Source: an uncultured Cetobacterium sp.
GTDB taxonomy: Bacteria > Fusobacteriota > Fusobacteriia > Fusobacteriales > Fusobacteriaceae
Direction of reading: 5' to 3'
Length of the DNA: 64,000 nt
NCBI GenBank assembly: GCA_949293295.1
Contig: CASFCG010000005.1
Location: 1-64,000 of the forward strand
Below, in pieces: positions 28,531-37,830 of this stretch. Under the pieces are notes generated by a model. The model saw nothing but the letters and a program-made list of their open reading frames with translations. It was not told the DNA's origin and ran no database searches. Numbering within the stretch: position 1 is the stretch's first letter; every line of letters begins with the position of its first letter. A program made the position numbers and the translations under genes.

Positions 28531-30321
28531 TTATTTTTCCCACTCCTCTATCACCTTTTTCAAATAATTTCTAATCGAATTAAAATAAATAGTTTTTGAT
28601 TTGTTTTTTAAATCTAATAAAAAGTTTACACTAATATTTTCCTCTCTTGCACATTCTTTTACTGCTTTTTCTTCAATTTTTAACTTTTCATATTCATCAA
28701 ACTTTTCAAATAGCTCTAGATACCCTTCTTTTTTTTCATTTTCATTTATTAGCTCACCTATATTTGTTACAATAGATTTTTTTAATGGCTTTCTAGCTTG
28801 ATTTAGTTTTCTTTTACTTGTTAACCCTTTTTCCATACTATTAAATAAAGTTAAATTTTGCTTTGGAGTTTCTCTTTCTTGCTTTGACAAATTCTTCAAT
28901 ACTCCATTTATATATTGAACTAACGTCGTTTTTACTGGAGAATTTAAATTTTTATAAAGAATCTTTAAAAGCTCTATCAAAAACTCCTCTCCCTCTTCAA
29001 ACATTATCTTTCTAATTTTGGTGTCAGTTCTCTTGTCCCAAGATTTCGAAATATATATATTTCTTTTTGTTTTTTGAATCTGTGTAACTACTTTTTCAGA
29101 ATAATCGCTGTATTTAGATTTTTCATTTTTTGGAGTCATCTCAGATTTATTATCTTCTACAATTTCTGCTTCTTGTATATCATTAATCTCGTATTTAGAA
29201 AAATTTCTTTCAGATTTCTTACCTATTTTATTCTCAATCTTAAACTGTTTACTATTTTTTGCTTCTATATACTCAGATATATGACATGTCCCATCTTTAT
29301 TTTCATCAAACACATACTCTATATAATATGTGTCCTCCTCTTTATCCTGATAGGAACTATATTTTTTTATATACCCTAACTCTTTCAAAACCTCATAGGC
29401 TTTCTCAACCCTTTTCAAAACCTGCTTCATTCTGCATAAAATATATTTTTTTATTTCACCATTTTTACTAACTCTCTCTGTTATTTGCTCTGTTTTTAGA
29501 GGAATAATTGCCGCTATCGTCCTTAAGTTTATCCTATCTTCTTGCTTTTCATACCTTATTTTACTTATATATTTGTATATTCTTCCAGCGATAGGGTCTT
29601 TTGCTAATATCTCCATCAATGCTTTTGAATTGTACTTTATATATCTCTTGTCTTTTATTTTTTGCCTTATATTTTTATTTAATGTTACTCTATAATAGAT
29701 TTTTTTTCCTTTTTTTAACTTTTGATATGTCAAAAGCTTAAACTCCTCATCCTCAAATTTATATTTTCCCAGTTTTGTGTGATTTGAAACCACAAATTGA
29801 TACTCTGTATTTTTTAAATTTTTTAATGCTTGCTCAACTTTTGTGTAATAGGTTCTGTTCATTTTATTTCCCAAAAAATTAACTATAAAATCAGAGATTT
29901 CAAACTCTATATGCTCCTCTGAAAGTTCCAACTCTTTCTTTATTTCATATGCTGAAATCAAATAAGTGTATATTTTTTCTTCAAATATTGAGGGTTGAAA
30001 TACTTTATCTTTTGCATTCTTAGCAACTAGAGTACAATACATAGTCACACCTAAATCTTCAAAAGAGTACTGAAAGTTTACTCTTTTATTTTGCTTCTGA
30101 GGAGTAAAAAAAGGAAACACAATCATTTCAACTGGGATGTTTATCACATTATCCTTTAGATTTAAAAAATTTCCAGTCTCTTTTATAACAACCTCTTTTA
30201 CCTCTATATCTGGAATCTCATTTAATTGTATATCTATTTTGGTAATATCACTCAATAATGACCCTGTCGAGGATATATTTATATTTTCAATTTCATTTAA
30301 ATTTAACTCTTTTTTCTCCAT
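28531..30321 (-). CDS. Plasmid-type replication initiator protein (Rep/RPA-like)
   Basis: The 596-residue protein has no AAA+ motifs, so it is not DnaA. Residues about 65-330 look like a tandem winged-helix initiator of the RepA/RPA/TrfA kind: an N-terminal block (FPFFTPQKQ...VNFQYSFEDLGV), then a segment around DPIAGRIYKYISKIRY and a helix-rich VLKELGYIKKY end. The remaining 260 or so residues are Lys/Glu-rich with a predicted linker and a helical C-terminus that I do not recognise. The gene faces away from an iteron array, next to rpmH, and its -35 lies inside an iteron. I infer chromosomal origin initiation; an integrated plasmid Rep is the alternative. AAGGAGAT precedes the ATG. Confidence 0.75.
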   Translation of the reverse strand: MEKKELNLNEIENINISSTGSLLSDITKIDIQLNEIPDIEVKEVVIKETGNFLNLKDNVINIPVEMIVFPFFTPQKQNKRVNFQYSFEDLGVTMYCTLVAKNAKDKVFQPSIFEEKIYTYLISAYEIKKELELSEEHIEFEISDFIVNFLGNKMNRTYYTKVEQALKNLKNTEYQFVVSNHTKLGKYKFEDEEFKLLTYQKLKKGKKIYYRVTLNKNIRQKIKDKRYIKYNSKALMEILAKDPIAGRIYKYISKIRYEKQEDRINLRTIAAIIPLKTEQITERVSKNGEIKKYILCRMKQVLKRVEKAYEVLKELGYIKKYSSYQDKEEDTYYIEYVFDENKDGTCHISEYIEAKNSKQFKIENKIGKKSERNFSKYEINDIQEAEIVEDNKSEMTPKNEKSKYSDYSEKVVTQIQKTKRNIYISKSWDKRTDTKIRKIMFEEGEEFLIELLKILYKNLNSPVKTTLVQYINGVLKNLSKQERETPKQNLTLFNSMEKGLTSKRKLNQARKPLKKSIVTNIGELINENEKKEGYLELFEKFDEYEKLKIEEKAVKECAREENISVNFLLDLKNKSKTIYFNSIRNYLKKVIEEWEK

Positions 30322-30371
30322 ATATCTCCTTAAAAATTAATATCTTTAATAATGTGTATATTAATAAAAAT

Positions 30372-30400
30372 ATTATACCAATTTTTTTGTATATACTCAA
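30372..30400 (-). promoter_or_regulatory. Promoter of the initiator gene, overlapped by iteron 1
   Basis: On the minus strand TTGAGT (30395-30400) and TATAAT (30372-30377) are 17 bases apart, and the -10 is extended (TGG before TATAAT). The -35 and most of the spacer lie inside iteron 1, so initiator binding should repress its own gene. Confidence 0.7.
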
Positions 30401-30410
30401 TAATATTTTT
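30385..30410. repeat. Iteron 1 (strong type)
   Basis: The core TGTATATACTCAATAATA begins at 30388 and is flanked by T runs. It is identical over 26 bases to iteron 5. Confidence 0.85.
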
Positions 30411-30487
30411 ACAAATTTTAAAATCTTTATTTTCAATCTTAGAATTAATAGTACACCCTTTTGTATTGAGAAAAATAAGAGTTTTCA

Positions 30488-30512
30488 CAAATGTATATAA
30501 AGAATAATAAAT
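30488..30512. repeat. Iteron 2 (weak type)
   Basis: ATGTATAT (30491-30498), four variable bases, then AATAATAAAT. It matches iteron 4 at 18 of 22 positions and lies exactly 198 bases from it; TGTATAT begins at 30492. Confidence 0.65.
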
Positions 30513-30582
30513 CAGAATTATTAGTTTTTTTAGCTATATAAACCTGCTACTGTTAAAAATACTGAAAACTCCTATCTCGCTC

Positions 30583-30608
30583 TTTTGTATATATTCAATA
30601 ATATTTTT
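30583..30608. repeat. Iteron 3 (strong type)
   Basis: It differs from iterons 1 and 5 at one base (ATTCAA for ACTCAA). TGTATAT begins at 30586, exactly 198 bases after iteron 1. Confidence 0.85.
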
Positions 30609-30685
30609 TATTCTCATAACATACTAATTTTTAATATATTAATTTTTTTCGACTTAATTTTAATAGGAAAAAATCTTGATTTCTC

Positions 30686-30710
30686 TTTATGTATATTTTC
30701 AATAATAAAT
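30686..30710. repeat. Iteron 4 (weak type)
   Basis: ATGTATAT (30689-30696), TTTC, then AATAATAAAT. TGTATAT begins at 30690, 104 bases after iteron 3 and 198 after iteron 2. Confidence 0.7.
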
Positions 30711-30780
30711 AAAAATATTTATTTTTTCTAGAAAATTTTAATTTTAAAACTCAAAAAAATAAATAAATTCTAATTTTATC

Positions 30781-30806
30781 TTTTGTATATACTCAATAAT
30801 ATTTTT
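30781..30806. repeat. Iteron 5 (strong type)
   Basis: It is identical to iteron 1 over 26 bases. TGTATAT begins at 30784, 94 bases after iteron 4 and 198 after iteron 3. Confidence 0.85.
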
Positions 30807-30889
30807 TTATTATAACACATTTATTTTTAAAGGTTGATTGCACTTTTTTTTGTCATCTTAATCATTACATTATACATATAACAATTAAC

Positions 30890-30932
30890 TAAATAACAAC
30901 TATAATTGTGTGTTGTTATTTATTATTTTTTT
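30890..30932. repeat. Inverted repeat with T tract inside the candidate origin
   Basis: Eleven-base arms (30890-30900 and 30912-30922, core AATAACAAC/GTTGTTATT) surround an 11-base loop, followed by a T-rich tract to 30932. It may be a terminator of an unseen short RNA or a structural element of the origin. Confidence 0.55.
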
Positions 30933-31087
30933 AAGATAATAGTTGCATAAGAATCTCAAAAAATGCAAGTAAAAAAAGAGTTTTTTACTGATATGTATAT
31001 TTATAAAAATAAAATAATTCCCTTGAATTTATCAAAATACTATTCAAAATATATCTTTAATTCTTATTACAATAACAAATAAATCAC

Positions 31088-31116
31088 TTGACAAAACAAA
31101 TAATTTCTTCTACAAT
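31088..31116 (+). promoter_or_regulatory. Promoter of rpmH
   Basis: A perfect TTGACA (31088-31093), 17 bases, and TACAAT (31111-31116), about 40 bases before the rpmH start. Confidence 0.85.
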
Positions 31117-31157
31117 AATTATCTGAAATATAGATGCTTTTGGGGAGGTGAAAACAA

Positions 31158-31292
31158 ATGAAAAGAACGTATCAACCAAATAATAGAAAATACAAAAAAG
31201 ACCACGGATTTAGAGCTAGAATGGCGACTAAAAATGGAAGAAAAGTATTAAAAAGAAGAAGAGCCAAAGGAAGAAAAGTATTATCTGCGTAA
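31158..31292 (+). CDS. rpmH: 50S ribosomal protein L34
   Basis: A 44-residue, highly basic protein with the L34 signature: MKRTYQPN at the start, then HGFRARM, and [11 protein letters not shown] at the end. It is a component of the large ribosomal subunit. GGGGAGGTG precedes the ATG. It has its own promoter and a GC-rich terminator. rpmH is usually adjacent to dnaA at bacterial origins, but here its divergent neighbour is the Rep-type initiator. The gene is short but its identity is unambiguous. Confidence 0.98.
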
Positions 31293-31427: not shown

Positions 31428-31775
31428 ATGAAAACATTAAAAAAAAATAATGAGTTTAGGCTGATTTACAACATAGGAAATAAAATATACGGCTTCTATG
31501 TAATTGTATTTTTAAGGAAAAACAAAATGCAAGAAAATAGATTTGGATTTGTGGCTAGTAAAAAAATTGGTAACGCAGTTTGTCGTAATAGAATAAAAAG
31601 GTTATTCAAAGAGTATTGTCGAGTCAACGAACTTCGTTTTATTTTGGGATTTGATATCGTATTGGTAGCTAAACAAAAAGCAGGTAAAAAATTCAAAGAA
31701 TTAAAATACAAGGAGATTGAACAAGACCTTGAAAAATGTTTCGAAAATTATAGGTTATTTAAAAAGCAAAGTTGA
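31428..31775 (+). CDS. rnpA: Ribonuclease P protein component
   Basis: The 115-residue basic protein is the RNase P subunit that helps the catalytic RNA cut 5' leaders from pre-tRNA. The family motif appears as [18 protein letters not shown] at about residues 47-64. The usual rpmH, rnpA, yidD, yidC, jag order is kept. AGGAG lies before the ATG. It has its own promoter, separated from rpmH by a terminator. The catalytic RNA gene is not in this window as far as I can see. Confidence 0.95.
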
Positions 31776-31782
31776 ACTAATA

Positions 31783-31992
31783 GTGAAAATAACAATCTTA
31801 TGTATAATAAGATTTTATCAAAAATATATATCTAGTTTATTGGGGAAAAATTGTATCTACTACCCTACATGTTCTCAATACATGCTTAAAGCTATAGAGA
31901 GATATGGAGTTTTGAAAGGTGGGTATTTAGGAATAAAAAGATTATTAAGATGCACGCCCTTTCACAAAGGTGGATATGATGATGTTCCTTAA
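31783..31992 (+). CDS. yidD: Membrane protein insertion efficiency factor
   Basis: The small protein has the YidD signature IRFYQKYIS followed by [17 protein letters not shown] and [18 protein letters not shown] choose the GTG at 31783 (69 residues), just after the rnpA stop, because the longer frame from a TTG at 31717 lies inside rnpA. Family members are usually 70-85 residues. YidD is a membrane-associated helper of YidC-dependent insertion, and yidC follows 28 bases later. The exact start is uncertain. Confidence 0.88.
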
Positions 31993-32020: not shown

Positions 32021-32629
32021 ATGGAGTTTTTATATAAAATTTTTGAAGAGGCACTTTTATTTTTGAATGGATTAACGGGGAATTTCGGTCTAGCAATTAT
32101 ATTATTGACCCTTTTAATAAAAATTATTTTGTTGCCTTTGACTTTAAAACAGGATAAAGCGATGAAAAAGATGAAAGAGTTACAACCGACATTGGATAAA
32201 TATAAAGAGTTATATGGTGATAATAAAGAACTATTAAATCAAAAAACTATGGAGTTATATAGAGAGAAAAACATTAATCCAGCGGGAGGATGTCTTCCTT
32301 TATTAATACAACTTCCTATTCTTTGGGCATTATTTGGTGTTTTAAGAGCTGAAAGAGGAGTTGTTCCAGCAGAAAGCTTTTTATGGTTAAACTTGTTAGA
32401 AGCAGACCCTTTTTACATATTACCGATCCTTAACGGAGTTATAGCTTTCGTGCAACAGGCTTTAAGTGGAGCTGGAAATAATCCTCAAACTAAAAATATG
32501 ATGTATATTTTTCCAATCATGATGATTTTTATCTCATATAAGATGCCTGCAGGATTACAAGTTTATTGGTTAACTTCAAGTTTAGCAGGAGTTATTCAAC
32601 AATACTTCATAATGAAAAAAGGAGATTAG
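32021..32629 (+). CDS. yidC: Membrane protein insertase YidC
   Basis: The 202-residue protein is a short YidC/Oxa1 insertase with five hydrophobic segments and no large periplasmic domain. Recognisable parts are LPLTLKQDKAMKKMKELQP after the first core helix, GGCLPLLIQLPILWALFGVLR, and the late PAGLQVYWLTSS segment. The usual core arginine in the first conserved helix is Lys34 here (LLIKIILLP). AGGAGG precedes the ATG. No lipoprotein signal is seen, unlike many Firmicutes copies. Confidence 0.95.
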   Translation: MEFLYKIFEEALLFLNGLTGNFGLAIILLTLLIKIILLPLTLKQDKAMKKMKELQPTLDKYKELYGDNKELLNQKTMELYREKNINPAGGCLPLLIQLPILWALFGVLRAERGVVPAESFLWLNLLEADPFYILPILNGVIAFVQQALSGAGNNPQTKNMMYIFPIMMIFISYKMPAGLQVYWLTSSLAGVIQQYFIMKKGD

Positions 32630-32636
32630 AACGATT

Positions 32637-33278
32637 ATGAAAAACATAATTGAAATAAAAGCTAAAAATAAAGATGTTGCTGTGGCTAGAGCGATAAAAA
32701 TACTAGAGATTGACAAAAAGGCAATAAAGAACATTACAGAGGAAAGAAAACCATTTTCATTTTTGGGGTTATTCTCTAGAGAGGGAATTTATAAGATTGA
32801 GATTGCTTCAGATGAGACTGAAGAGAGTGTAGGACATGAAGTTAATAAAGAGAGGGAGATTTTACAAAAAGGAAAAGAACTATTAGAAAAGATGGGATTA
32901 GATTTAGATGCAGAAATAGAAAAAAAGGATTTTAGAACATATACACTTAATTTACAAGGTCCCGATAATGGAATTATTATAGGGAAAAAAGGAAAAACGT
33001 TGAATAGTTATGAGTATTTGTTGAATATTATGGCGAAAGAAGCTAAAATTGAGGTTGATGTTGAAGGGTTTAAAACTAAGAGAGAGGAAACTTTGAGAGA
33101 ATTAGCTAAAAAAATGTCTGATAAGGTTTTAAAAACTTCAAAACCTGTTAGATTGAATCCAATGTCACCGAGAGAGAGAAAAATTATTCATGAAATAATA
33201 AATACTTACCCAGAATTGAGCACGTACAGTGAAGGAAAAGACCCGAGAAGGTATATTGTTATAAGGAGAAAAAGATAG
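32637..33278 (+). CDS. khpB: RNA-binding protein Jag/KhpB
   Basis: The 213-residue protein has the three Jag parts: a Jag_N domain (about 1-55, with [16 protein letters not shown]), a KH domain containing [17 protein letters not shown], and a C-terminal R3H domain ([12 protein letters not shown], then [10 protein letters not shown]). KhpB pairs with KhpA to bind small and messenger RNAs and to affect cell division. The khpA gene is also in this window at 58088-58327. It follows yidC after 7 bases. Confidence 0.94.
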
Positions 33279-33291
33279 GAGAGGAAAGAAA

Positions 33292-34659
33292 ATGTTTGAT
33301 ACAATCGCCGCAATCTCTACCCCAAGAGGCGAGGGGGGGATAGGAATAGTGAGATTATCCGGTAAAGATTCTTTGTGTATACTCTCAAAAATATTTAAGC
33401 CAAAATCGAATAAAAAGGTAAAAGAATTACGTAATTTCAGTATAAATTATGGTCATCTTTATGATGAAAAAAAGGTTGTAGATGAGGTTTTGGTCTCAAT
33501 AATGAAAGCACCAAATACTTATACGAAAGAGGATATAGTAGAGATTAATTGCCATGGTGGCTTTTTGATAACAGAGAAGATATTAGAACTTGTTTTAAAA
33601 AATGGTGCAAGATTAGCTGAGACTGGTGAGTTCACGAGAAGAGCTTTTTTGAACGGAAGATTAGATTTGACGCAGGCAGAAGCGGTAATTGATTTAATCC
33701 ATGGAAAAACAGAGAGGAGTTTATCTTTATCCTTGGAGCAACTAAGAGGAGATTTAAGAGAGTTAATAAATGAGTTGAAAAAGAAAGTTATGGATGTTTC
33801 AGCTCATGTAAATGTTGTATTGGATTATCCAGAGGAGGGGATAGATGACCCTTTGCCAGAGGAGTTAGTCTCAAATCTACATGATGTTATCAATACGACG
33901 ACAAGATTGATAGATACCTACAGTAAAGGAAAATTGATAAAGGAAGGTGTTAAAACTGCAATAGTTGGAAGACCGAATGTAGGGAAGTCAAGTTTGTTGA
34001 ACACTTTTTTGAAAGAGGAAAGAGCTATTGTAACACACATAGCTGGGACGACAAGAGATATCATCGAAGAGGTAATAAATATAAATGGTATTCCTTTAAT
34101 TTTAGTTGATACAGCAGGGATAAGAAAAACAGAGGATATTGTAGAAAATATAGGAGTTGAGAAATCAAGAGAGTTAATAAGAAATGCTGATTTAGTTCTT
34201 TTTGTATTAGATAACTCTCAAGAGTTAACAGAAGAGGATTTGAAAATATATGAAGAGTTGAATTATAAGAAAGTTATAGGAGTAATAAATAAAACAGATC
34301 AGGAAAGAAAGCTAGATATATCAAGATTGGATAGAATTGAAAAATGGTTGAGAGTGTCAGCCTTGGAGAAAGTTGGAATTGATGTACTGGAAAAAGAGAT
34401 ATATAATCAAATTGTGTCGGGACAGATAGAGGATAGTTCACAAAAATTAATAATTACTAATATTCGTCACAAGTCCGCTCTAGAAAAGACTAAAAAAGCG
34501 ATTGAAAACATATTCGAGACAATAGATTTGGGATTGCCAATGGATTTGATGGCAGTAGATTTAAAAGAAGCTTTAGATTCATTATCTGAGGTAACAGGTG
34601 AGATTACTAACGAGGATTTGTTGGACCATATATTTAGTAATTTTTGTGTTGGGAAATAG
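33292..34659 (+). CDS. mnmE: tRNA modification GTPase MnmE
   Basis: The 455-residue protein has an N-terminal formyl-folate-binding domain, a helical domain and an inserted G domain with [12 protein letters not shown] and [13 protein letters not shown]. The C-terminus ends CVGK, the conserved Cys-motif of this family. With MnmG it makes the cmnm5U34 wobble modification of tRNA. mnmG follows after 222 bases. AGGAAAG precedes the ATG. Confidence 0.97.
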
Positions 34660-34844: not shown

Positions 34845-34892
34845 TTGATAAATATTTTTATTATTTATCGTACAAGAGATTATGAGTTTTGA
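34845..34892 (+). CDS. Possible short leader frame overlapping the mnmG start
   Basis: A strong GAGGAGGT site (34833-34840) is followed 4 bases on by TTG and a 15-residue frame. Its TGA (34890-34892) lies just past the mnmG ATG (34882), in another frame. It could couple translation to mnmG. It is short, starts with TTG and may be chance. Confidence 0.3.
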   Translation: MINIFIIYRTRDYEF

Positions 34893-36735
34893 ATATGATG
34901 TAATTGTTGTAGGTGGGGGACATGCAGGGATAGAGGCAGCCTTAGCAAGTGCGAGATTGAATAGAAAAACTGTTTTATTCACGTTATCACTTGATAATAT
35001 AGGAATGATGTCCTGTAATCCATCAATAGGAGGCCCTGGAAAAAGTAATCTAGTTGCCGAGATAGATGTTTTGGGTGGAGAGATGGGAAAACATATAGAT
35101 AGATATAATCTTCAATTAAAGCATTTAAATACTAGTAAAGGACCAGCAGCAAGAATAACGAGAGGACAGGCTGATAAATTATTATATAGAAGTAAGATGA
35201 AAGCATTGCTTGAAGAGACTGAAAATTTAGAGATTATTCAAGACCAAGTAGAAGAGCTTATTATTGATAATAAACATATAAGAGGTGTAAGAACCGCATT
35301 AGGGATTGAGTATTTTTCGAAAGCGGTTATCTTAGCAACAGGGACTTTTTTGAGAGGAAGAGTTGTAATTGGAGATATAAAATATCCTGCTGGAAGAATG
35401 GGAGAGAACTCTGTAGAAAAGCTTTCGAAAAGTTTAGAGCAAAATGGTATTAAATTAGGACGTTATCAGACTGCTACACCACCAAGAATAGATAAAAGAA
35501 CAGTTAATTTTGAAGAGATGAAGCCACTTTATGGAGAGGAAAAACCTAGATATTTTTCAATATACACAGAAAAAGAGAGGAATGGTGTTGTTCCAACTTG
35601 GTTGACTCACACATCAGAGAAAACTATAGAGGTAACTAAGGAGTTATTAAAATATTCTCCCATAGTGTCAGGGATAATAGAGACACATGGTCCCAGACAT
35701 TGTCCGTCTTTGGATAGGAAAGTTTTGAACTTTCCAGAAAAGCATGACCATCAGATTTTTTTAGAATTGGAATCTAGAGAATCGAATGAGTTATATGTTA
35801 ATGGATTGACGACCGCGATGCCACCATTTGCACAAGAGCAGATGTTAAAGTCAATAAGAGGGCTTGAGAACTCTAAAATAATGAGATATGGATATGCTGT
35901 GGAGTATGATTATGCTCCGGCCTCCCAGCTTTATCCAAGTTTAGAGAGTAAAAAAATAGAGGGGTTGTATTTTGCAGGACAGATAAACGGGACTTCTGGC
36001 TATGAAGAAGCAGCAACTCAGGGATTTATAGCAGGAGTGAATGCAGCTAGAAAGACAATGAGAAAAGAACCTGTAATATTTGATAGAAGTGAGGGATATA
36101 TTGGGGTTTTAGTTGATGATATAATTCATAAGAAAACTCCAGAGCCATACAGGGTACTTCCTTCGAGGTCAGAATATAGATTGACCTTAAGATTTGATAA
36201 TGGTTTTATGCGTCTTTTAGATAAAGCGGAAGAGATAGGAATTGTTTCTAAAGAGAAGATAGAGTATTTGAAAGAGTGTAGAGCAAATGTATATAAAGAG
36301 ATTGAAAGAATAAAAGAAACGAAAGTTTCAATGAAAGAAGCCAATCTATTTTTGGAGGAGAAAGGATTAGAGGTTAGGTTGACAAAAGGGGTCTCAGCTT
36401 CTGAATTATTAAAGATAAAAGAGGTTACATATGAGGATTTAGGAAGATTTTTAGAGTTACCGGAGTATCCAGAGTTCGTGAAAAATCAAATAGAGGTAAT
36501 GATAAAATATGAAGTATTTATAGAGAGAGAAAGAGAACAGATAGAAAGATTTAAAAGACTGGAGTCCATAGTGATTGAAAAAGGGTTTGATTTTGATTCA
36601 GTTGTTGGAATTTCTAATATTGCTAGAGCTGGGATGAAAGAGGTAGAACCACTTTCAATAGGAGAAGCATCGAGAATAAGTGGAGTGACTGGGAATGATA
36701 TAGCTATTTTATTAGCTCATTTAAGAAGAGATTAA
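34882..36735 (+). CDS. mnmG: tRNA uridine 5-carboxymethylaminomethyl modification enzyme MnmG
   Basis: The 617-residue FAD enzyme has the N-terminal dinucleotide motif VVGGGHAGIEAA, the GGPGKSNLVAEID block, the conserved GYEEAATQGFIAG region near the second FAD contact and the C-terminal RISGVTGNDIAILLAHL helix region that binds MnmE. It catalyses wobble uridine modification together with MnmE. Only a weak ribosome site lies directly before the ATG, and a strong one lies 42 bases upstream in front of a short leader frame. Confidence 0.97.
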   Translation: MSFEYDVIVVGGGHAGIEAALASARLNRKTVLFTLSLDNIGMMSCNPSIGGPGKSNLVAEIDVLGGEMGKHIDRYNLQLKHLNTSKGPAARITRGQADKLLYRSKMKALLEETENLEIIQDQVEELIIDNKHIRGVRTALGIEYFSKAVILATGTFLRGRVVIGDIKYPAGRMGENSVEKLSKSLEQNGIKLGRYQTATPPRIDKRTVNFEEMKPLYGEEKPRYFSIYTEKERNGVVPTWLTHTSEKTIEVTKELLKYSPIVSGIIETHGPRHCPSLDRKVLNFPEKHDHQIFLELESRESNELYVNGLTTAMPPFAQEQMLKSIRGLENSKIMRYGYAVEYDYAPASQLYPSLESKKIEGLYFAGQINGTSGYEEAATQGFIAGVNAARKTMRKEPVIFDRSEGYIGVLVDDIIHKKTPEPYRVLPSRSEYRLTLRFDNGFMRLLDKAEEIGIVSKEKIEYLKECRANVYKEIERIKETKVSMKEANLFLEEKGLEVRLTKGVSASELLKIKEVTYEDLGRFLELPEYPEFVKNQIEVMIKYEVFIEREREQIERFKRLESIVIEKGFDFDSVVGISNIARAGMKEVEPLSIGEASRISGVTGNDIAILLAHLRRD

Positions 36736-36762: not shown

Positions 36763-36789
36763 CTATAATAGGTTGAGGAGGTGATGAGA

Positions 36790-37830
36790 GTGGCAAAAAA
36801 CAGTTTTATAATTGAAATAAGTAGGAAAAAAATGATTGATAATTATGAGTATCTTGTGAGAAAAACAGGGAAAAAGATGATTGCAGTTGTAAAATCAAAT
36901 GCTTATGGGATTGGCTTAAGAGAAACTGTGATGATATTGAATGAAAATGGGTGTGATTACTTTGCAGTTTCAAGGGAGAGAGAGATAAAATCTATTTTAA
37001 ACATGGGGTTAAGCGGGATAAAAATATTGTTTTTAGATATCTTGGAGGATTTTATAATATTAAAAGAGAATAAAAATATTGAAATGGTTGTCACAGATAT
37101 AGAGGTGTTAAAAAGTTGTATAAAACAAGGAATAAGTTGTTTACAACTGCATATACGTTTAGATTTTGGATTTTGTAGAAGCGGCTTTAAGGTTGATGAG
37201 TTAGAAAGGTTAATAGATTTTATTCAAAGCAAAAATTTAAGATTTAGAGGGATAATGGGACATCTTTTTTCAGCTGATAAAGATGATATGGAAATAATAG
37301 AAAAGCAATTTACAGAGATTGTAGAAAAAATAGGAAAGGAAAGATTTGAAGTAATACATCTTCTAAATAGTGATGGAGTGGAGAATATACAGTGCGAAAT
37401 AGCTACTCATATAAGATGTGGACAGCATATTTTTGGATTACAGACAAAAGGAAAAAATAATAAAAATATAAAAAAAGTTTTTGAGTTAAAAGGAAAAATT
37501 TTTGATATAACAGAAATAGGAAAATCAGAATATATTGGATATTCTAAAATTAATGACCTCATTTTGAAGGGATATAAAAGAGTAGGACAGGTAAAAATAG
37601 GATATGGTGATGGTTTTTTAAGGAAGTATGAGAATATTATGTCTATAATCAATAATAAAAAATATAGAGTGATTCATATCAGTATGGATGTATCATTTGT
37701 TGTTGTGGATGAAAATATAAAAAATGGGGATGAAGTGGAACTCTTTTTCGATTTTGAAGAGATAGAGGAAAAAGAATCTTGTGAAGTTTTGGTAAATTTA
37801 AATGAACGTATAGAAAGAGTAGTAAAATAA
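36790..37830 (+). CDS. alr: Alanine racemase
   Basis: I choose the GTG at 36790 (346 residues), 8 bases after the GGAGG site, over the ATG at 36784 which is too close. The PLP lysine is in AVVKSNAYGIG near the N-terminus. The barrel carries RLDFGFCRSGF, and the C-terminal domain carries the catalytic Tyr in KIGYGDGF. The protein is shorter than most alanine racemases (about 370) and fairly divergent, so another amino-acid racemase is possible. It makes D-alanine for peptidoglycan. Confidence 0.85.
   Translation: MAKNSFIIEISRKKMIDNYEYLVRKTGKKMIAVVKSNAYGIGLRETVMILNENGCDYFAVSREREIKSILNMGLSGIKILFLDILEDFIILKENKNIEMVVTDIEVLKSCIKQGISCLQLHIRLDFGFCRSGFKVDELERLIDFIQSKNLRFRGIMGHLFSADKDDMEIIEKQFTEIVEKIGKERFEVIHLLNSDGVENIQCEIATHIRCGQHIFGLQTKGKNNKNIKKVFELKGKIFDITEIGKSEYIGYSKINDLILKGYKRVGQVKIGYGDGFLRKYENIMSIINNKKYRVIHISMDVSFVVVDENIKNGDEVELFFDFEEIEEKESCEVLVNLNERIERVVK

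Follow-up and report, generated by a model that had tools for sequence, protein, structure and literature searches.

Copying of bacterial chromosomes is started near-universally by DnaA, and the insect endosymbionts that lack dnaA are reduced. Among the closest described systems is ori2 on chromosome 2 of Vibrio cholerae, an AT-rich origin of approximately 900 bp upstream of the initiator gene (rctB), with head-to-tail sites, one of which lies over the initiator promoter (PMC6090056). The consulted sections of a 2020 study state that no free-living bacteria without dnaA were known before four cyanobacteria, and they name no replacement initiator for these cyanobacteria (PMC7198777). Here, we describe a locus in a 64,000-nucleotide stretch of DNA (the window) from an uncultured Cetobacterium sp. 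of the Fusobacteriaceae, namely contig C5 of a draft assembly that comprises 1.18 Mb in 26 contigs and is 83% complete. The locus is very probably the main-chromosome origin, with the protein Rep (28531-30321) as the initiator in place of DnaA after an ancestral swap. That Rep itself initiates is inferred from sequence.

An earlier note, made from the letters of the window, had claimed a non-AAA+ protein of 596 residues that resembles RepA/RPA/TrfA initiators and is transcribed away from an AT-rich region of 836 bases with five iterons, no good DnaA box, the gene order rpmH to mnmG on the other side, and a strand switch. It took the region for the chromosomal origin, fired by a plasmid-type initiator captured by the chromosome. 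The open reading frame (ORF) and the AT-rich region are present as claimed, and the main features are as follows (scores are those of a position weight matrix, PWM).

28531 to 30321, minus strand: rep, 596-aa replication initiator (RPA/RctB-like) and presumed DnaA replacement (ORF, homologues, RPA matches in relatives, Foldseek)
29275 to 30156, minus strand: rep core, residues 56-349, predicted tandem winged-helix DNA-binding region (AlphaFold2 core model and PDB matches)
28531 to 29109, minus strand: C-terminal helical domain of rep, approximately residues 405-596 (predicted local distance difference test, pLDDT, approximately 75-87 over much of the domain)
30322 to 31157, no strand: presumed chromosomal origin, the rep-rpmH intergenic region of 836 bp (17% GC, seven iterons, skew minimum)
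30371 to 30399, minus strand: rep promoter by sequence, -35 TTGAGT (30399-30394), 17-bp spacer, -10 TATAAT (30376-30371)
30991 to 31013, minus strand: iteron 1, 15.3 bits
30781 to 30803, minus strand: iteron 2, 23.6 bits
30687 to 30709, minus strand: iteron 3, 21.1 bits
30583 to 30605, minus strand: iteron 4, 21.4 bits
30489 to 30511, minus strand: iteron 5, 18.5 bits
30385 to 30407, minus strand: iteron 6, overlapping the rep promoter -35, 23.6 bits
30352 to 30374, minus strand: iteron 7, overlapping the rep promoter -10, 18.1 bits

Within the window, cumulative GC skew reaches its minimum at 31,123, near the rpmH end of the intergenic region, with a skew of -0.23 to the left and +0.40 to the right. 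Gene direction switches as well: 29 long ORFs on the plus strand and none on the minus strand lie to the right of the origin, and 16 on the minus strand and one on the plus strand lie to the left (5.3-30.3 kb). For three relatives (G037, G025, and G015), the whole chromosome was sampled in 20 evenly spaced stretches of 20 kb each. In all three, Rep marks a switch of both skew and gene direction that is reversed near the antipode, and the global minimum is at the Rep-rpmH region. The fine-mapped local minima (278,860 in G037, 1,361,198 in G025, and 612,196 in G015) lie inside the Rep-rpmH region or at its rpmH edge. Two more genomes (G038 and G028) likewise have a local minimum at this region, and Haliovirga, which has dnaA, has its minimum at the equivalent place. 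The minimum is where the earlier note had proposed to look for it, and the locus shows what marks a main-chromosome origin, a global skew minimum together with a strand switch. As a side observation, a 2.1-Mb Fusobacterium vincentii record with an rpmH-Rep-recF-gyrB locus (NZ_CP084075.1) is filed as plasmid pSB055A and looks like the chromosome.

Rep was sought in all six frames, and DnaA by profile searches, in 98 Fusobacteriota genomes, 61 of them Fusobacteriaceae (47 with a completeness of 90% or more and a contamination of 5% or less) and 37 from the other families, f2 to f6. Rep was found in 59 of the 61 Fusobacteriaceae genomes. Families f3 to f6, with 36 genomes, have no Rep, and f2 has it once (Haliovirga), on a second contig that matches plasmid pHIC. 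DnaA domain IV (PF08299) was found in 0/61 Fusobacteriaceae versus 36/37 other Fusobacteriota, and the sole genome without it outside the family (G086) is 82% complete. The AAA+ domain (PF00308) reaches DnaA-level scores only outside Fusobacteriaceae. The weak Bac_DnaA matches inside the family are short, low-scoring AAA+ matches, which we read as DnaC/IstB-type proteins and rejected as DnaA. The dnaA search suggested earlier yielded none in 61 family genomes. Rep and DnaA are thus mutually exclusive in a near-perfect manner, and this exclusion counts as one evolutionary event because the family is a single clade. Every genome tested has retained RecF, DnaN, and DciA, and every complete one also DnaB. 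A full DnaB was not found in the window genome, which is probably an assembly gap given its completeness of 83%.

Two side observations concern gene copies. A second DnaN-like clamp gene is frequent in the family, with at least two copies in 56/61 Fusobacteriaceae versus 3/37 other Fusobacteriota; the window genome has its DnaN-like genes at G000:C22:27313-28422 and G000:C25:25749-26831. The extra copies go along with the loss of DnaA, but on one clade. Genome G009 has a decayed copy of Rep, interrupted by many stops (G009:C6:11921-13737), and approximately 2.5 kb away a second one, whose score equals that of the copy on C4.

The origin region carries iterons at every locus examined. The PWM was trained on the seven window sites and then refined over all loci, which gave 23-mers with the consensus WWTATTATTGWNNATATACAT. 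The scan of the window raised the iteron count from the five claimed to seven, all in one orientation, head-to-tail, where dinucleotide shuffles lead one to expect 0.05. All 31 Rep-rpmH regions contain iterons (4-12 each, in total 195 forward and 8 reverse), against 0.0-0.1 sites expected from shuffles of each region and a background of 7 sites, on both strands, in 1.2 Mb from three chromosomes. These counts are not independent, given the relatedness of the loci and their use in training the matrix. The spacing peaks at 104-105 bp, with further groups at 91-95, 115-118, 52-57, and 30-33 bp; the values are close to multiples of 10.5 bp, and 104-105 bp corresponds to ten helical turns. The spacing of approximately 20-22 bp that is ordinary for plasmids is not what the chromosomal Rep origins show. 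An exact DnaA box, TTATNCACA, is absent from all 31 Rep-rpmH regions, that of the window included, whereas 10 of 14 DnaA-bearing relatives have 1-4 each, and the dnaA-rpmH regions of the DnaA-bearing relatives contain no chromosomal iteron. Iterons over the -35 and -10 of the rep promoter point to autorepression by Rep. A hairpin at 30889-30922 was considered and rejected, its stability being no better than that of shuffles (z -1.0). Enlarged origins were seen at L115 (Fusobacterium gastrosuis, G015; 1394 bp, two five-iteron arrays) and L114 (2009 bp, 12 iterons).

The resemblance to RPA-type initiators stood for the family but not for the window protein taken alone. Pfam RPA (PF10134) matches 13 of 21 Rep homologues; among ten scanned individually, F. 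vincentii (31.5 bits) and G042 (28.7 bits) exceed the curated cut-off of 27 bits, and several others score 22-26 bits. Single-sequence searches with the window Rep (Pfam, NCBIfam, PHROGs, PDB) gave nothing meaningful, and the PDB matches to ETS factors, including one with E 7e-4 from the profile, look like chance. No Rep relatives were found in phages or viral contigs. A search with structure models, also proposed in the earlier note, matched RctB and R6K Pi. With the full-length AlphaFold2 model (pLDDT 62), the best Foldseek match in the PDB is RctB domains 2-3 (E 3e-7, prob 1.00), followed by the WH1 domain of a plasmid Rep. With the core-only model (pLDDT 70), RctB domains 2-3 are again on top (E 3e-5, prob 1.00), and the Pi-iteron complex 2nra is matched as well (prob 0.98). 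In these models, Rep has the predicted tandem winged-helix fold of RPA/Rep initiators. Residues 392-584 are 40% identical to a ZRK30 plasmid 'replication initiation protein', which is otherwise a different Rep. As a side observation, the Rep of pZRK30-2 (L205 3086-4567), with iterons of 21-22 bp, matches only the C-terminal domain of the chromosomal Rep. Initiator domains seem to have been swapped among Fusobacteriota plasmids, to judge from these sequences.

Beyond the origin region, the PWM scan gave four further iteron-like sites in the window, at 33.4-37.6 kb.

33373 to 33395, minus strand: inside mnmE, 21.4 bits
34717 to 34739, minus strand: between mnmE and mnmG, 16.8 bits
35257 to 35279, plus strand: inside mnmG, 17.3 bits
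37637 to 37659, minus strand: inside the ORF 36781-37830, 22.2 bits

The background of such sites in other chromosomes is approximately 0.006 per kb. In G025, 15 of the 26 sites outside the origin region lie within 50 kb of the origin (0.7 expected; G025:C1 1.32-1.39 Mb). The figures are 13 of 25 in G028 (C1 ends), which belongs to the same genus as G025, and 3 of 4 in G015. G037 and G038 have none or one near-origin extra site with the strict pattern, and Haliovirga has no iteron-like sites within 50 kb of the origin. Roles of this halo in titration, origin pairing, or segregation are possible. Its parS-like clustering in one genus would suit an alternative in which this is oriC, with Rep and its sites serving mainly segregation or repression, Rep being ParB-like or a regulator, and with DnaA-independent initiation achieved otherwise, as in some cyanobacteria. 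A strong chromosomal ParB is missing from the 14 Fusobacteriaceae genomes tested (none above 68 bits), and Haliovirga and G090 have one above 170 bits (comparison set G062 and G090). We nevertheless consider this very improbable: the fold of Rep is that of an initiator, its relatives include plasmid initiators, the dense iteron array is exactly at the skew switch, and the clustering with the strict pattern is not seen in G037 and G038.

The Reps of Ilyobacter pILYOP01/02, Haliovirga pHIC, and Psychrilyobacter contigs are homologous to the chromosomal Rep over the full length, with 32-37% identity. On the tree, from which the pILYOP02 Rep was left out, the chromosomal Reps form one clade, and the plasmid copies (pHIC, pILYOP01, and two Psychrilyobacter-type contigs) fall outside. 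For 14 genomes, a Rep tree was compared with a RecF tree by a quick method, with some RecF rows partly truncated; both branch identically at genus level, which argues for vertical inheritance of Rep after one replacement. The simplest reading of these sequences would be a single replacement in the ancestor of Fusobacteriaceae followed by vertical descent. The upstream regions of the plasmid relatives lack the chromosomal iteron and contain other repeats, so that none of these plasmids stands out as the donor. In pILYOP02 (L208, 3446-3860), repeats of the type TTCTCCG..TGATGG lie upstream of Rep with alternating distances of 61 and 44 bp, which sum to 105 bp.

Related Reps on plasmids of the same phylum would also suit a silent or accessory origin of an integrated plasmid or prophage, with the real oriC elsewhere and fired by another protein. 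This is very improbable, as the slot is conserved in at least nine genera, the chromosomal copies are a single clade, the whole-chromosome skew minimum is exactly at the locus, and family genomes lack DnaA. Rather than being absent from close relatives, as an integrated plasmid might be, the block is present in 59/61 members, beside rpmH in 31/31 loci examined, and has a tree matching that of RecF at genus level. Capture of a plasmid-type initiator by the chromosome is supported, with the correction that the replacement is family-wide and old and that related Reps are still on plasmids of the phylum. The inference of a chromosomal origin likewise gains support, given the skew minimum, the absence of dnaA from 61 family genomes, and the age and family-wide presence of the block.

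The consulted part of a 2007 Fusobacterium paper treats the ORF in this slot as a putative, low-identity dnaA (PMC1924603); judged by position in F. vincentii, this ORF is almost certainly Rep. That Rep is a very diverged DnaA, as this literature and a slot identical to that of dnaA (upstream of recF and gyrB) would have it, has a near-negligible probability, because no family genome has a Bac_DnaA or Bac_DnaA_C match at DnaA-like scores, profile-profile comparison (hhalign) with Fusobacteriota DnaA gives 1.3% probability and no relation, the family matches RPA with a fold like RctB and Pi, and the origin has iterons without exact DnaA boxes.

Several points weigh against Rep as the initiator at this origin. 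The window Rep has no family match in the Pfam scan, RPA included, and confidence in the AlphaFold2 models is modest (pLDDT 62 for the whole, 70 for the core). Two draft genomes (G039 and G045) have neither Rep nor DnaA, and the absence of dnaA rests on profile searches, with many of the genomes being drafts. Promoter overlap comparable to that in the window is clear in about half of the loci (17/31). Helical phasing of the iterons is no more than suggestive: the resultant is 0.59 for a period near 10.5-10.7, but 0.69 for 12.0 with the same correlated data.

With Rep as the initiator, the proposed course is as follows. In the ancestor of Fusobacteriaceae, dnaA would have been lost, and its slot would have gone to a plasmid-type Rep gene together with the iteron origin of that gene. 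Rep would bind the head-to-tail iterons via its two winged helices. As most sites are approximately 10 (9-11) helical turns apart and so on one helix face, bound Reps may bring the AT-rich DNA into a loop or wrap and open it, and DnaB would be loaded next, perhaps through DciA. Rep would repress its own promoter through the two overlapping iterons, and the extra sites around the origin may titrate or pair Rep and so limit re-initiation. We lean towards the view that DnaA has been displaced completely, that the family's only chromosome runs on Rep and iterons in a new origin layout with sites approximately ten helical turns apart, and that the halo in at least one genus would act as a DnaA-free once-per-cycle control.

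The neighboring genes follow the claimed order.

31088 to 31116, plus strand: rpmH promoter by sequence, TTGACA, 17-bp spacer, TACAAT
31158 to 31292, plus strand: rpmH (sequence; tblastn of rpmH across loci)
31428 to 31775, plus strand: rnpA (ORF; kept next to rpmH in relatives)
31717 to 31992, plus strand: yidD (ORF)
32021 to 32629, plus strand: yidC (ORF)
32637 to 33278, plus strand: jag (KhpB; R3H and KH Pfam domains)
33292 to 34659, plus strand: mnmE (ORF)
34882 to 36735, plus strand: mnmG (ORF)

The CTTGACAA of the rpmH promoter is kept in 30/31 intergenic regions. Rep and rpmH are divergent in all 31 loci examined, and dnaA occupies the equivalent slot, divergent from rpmH, in relatives with DnaA. 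F. vincentii has the order mnmG-mnmE-jag-yidC-rnpA-rpmH, a gap, and Rep-recF-DUF721-gyrB-gyrA. Rep is upstream of recF-dciA-gyrB in most genera; recF and dciA of the window genome are on another contig (C9), and some of its genus mates have tens of kb between recF and Rep.

DnaA is treated as universal; it appears to have been lost from an entire family, with human oral and gut species among its members. The reading of this ORF as a putative low-identity dnaA is corrected. The family offers a natural case of an initiator swap, suited to testing which elements of cell-cycle control require DnaA, and Rep is a possible family-specific drug target. We found no report of DnaA replacement by Rep in the open-licence literature searched, although a report in a subscription journal is possible. 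Rep with iterons is of a known kind; its role as the sole main-chromosome initiator of a whole family and the wide iteron spacing are unreported in the searchable literature.

Among known systems, RctB is the top structural match and likewise a large Rep with tandem winged helices, and the ori2 layout (PMC6090056) resembles that of the Rep-rpmH origin. RctB and Rep share only approximately 10% sequence identity, and the RctB 12-mers are 10-11 bp apart, whereas the Fusobacteriaceae 23-mers repeat approximately every 105 bp. RctB serves a secondary chromosome, DnaA is still in use in the same cell, and a DnaA box is present in ori2, whereas Fusobacteriaceae are without DnaA. With the RPA/RepA-type (PF10134) and Rep_3/Pi/RepE initiators, Rep shares PF10134 matches and the Pi-iteron complex among its Foldseek matches. 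It differs from plasmid initiators in being chromosomal, vertically inherited, and longer (approximately 600 aa), with a further C-terminal domain, and its iterons are spaced approximately five times as widely as those of plasmids such as pZRK30-2, where the distance between repeats is 21-22 bp. The absence of dnaA is shared with insect endosymbionts and some cyanobacteria, as far as the consulted sections describe them (PMC7198777). The difference here is that a whole family, with both free-living and host-associated bacteria, is concerned, that a regular GC skew is kept, and that the replacement is identifiable.
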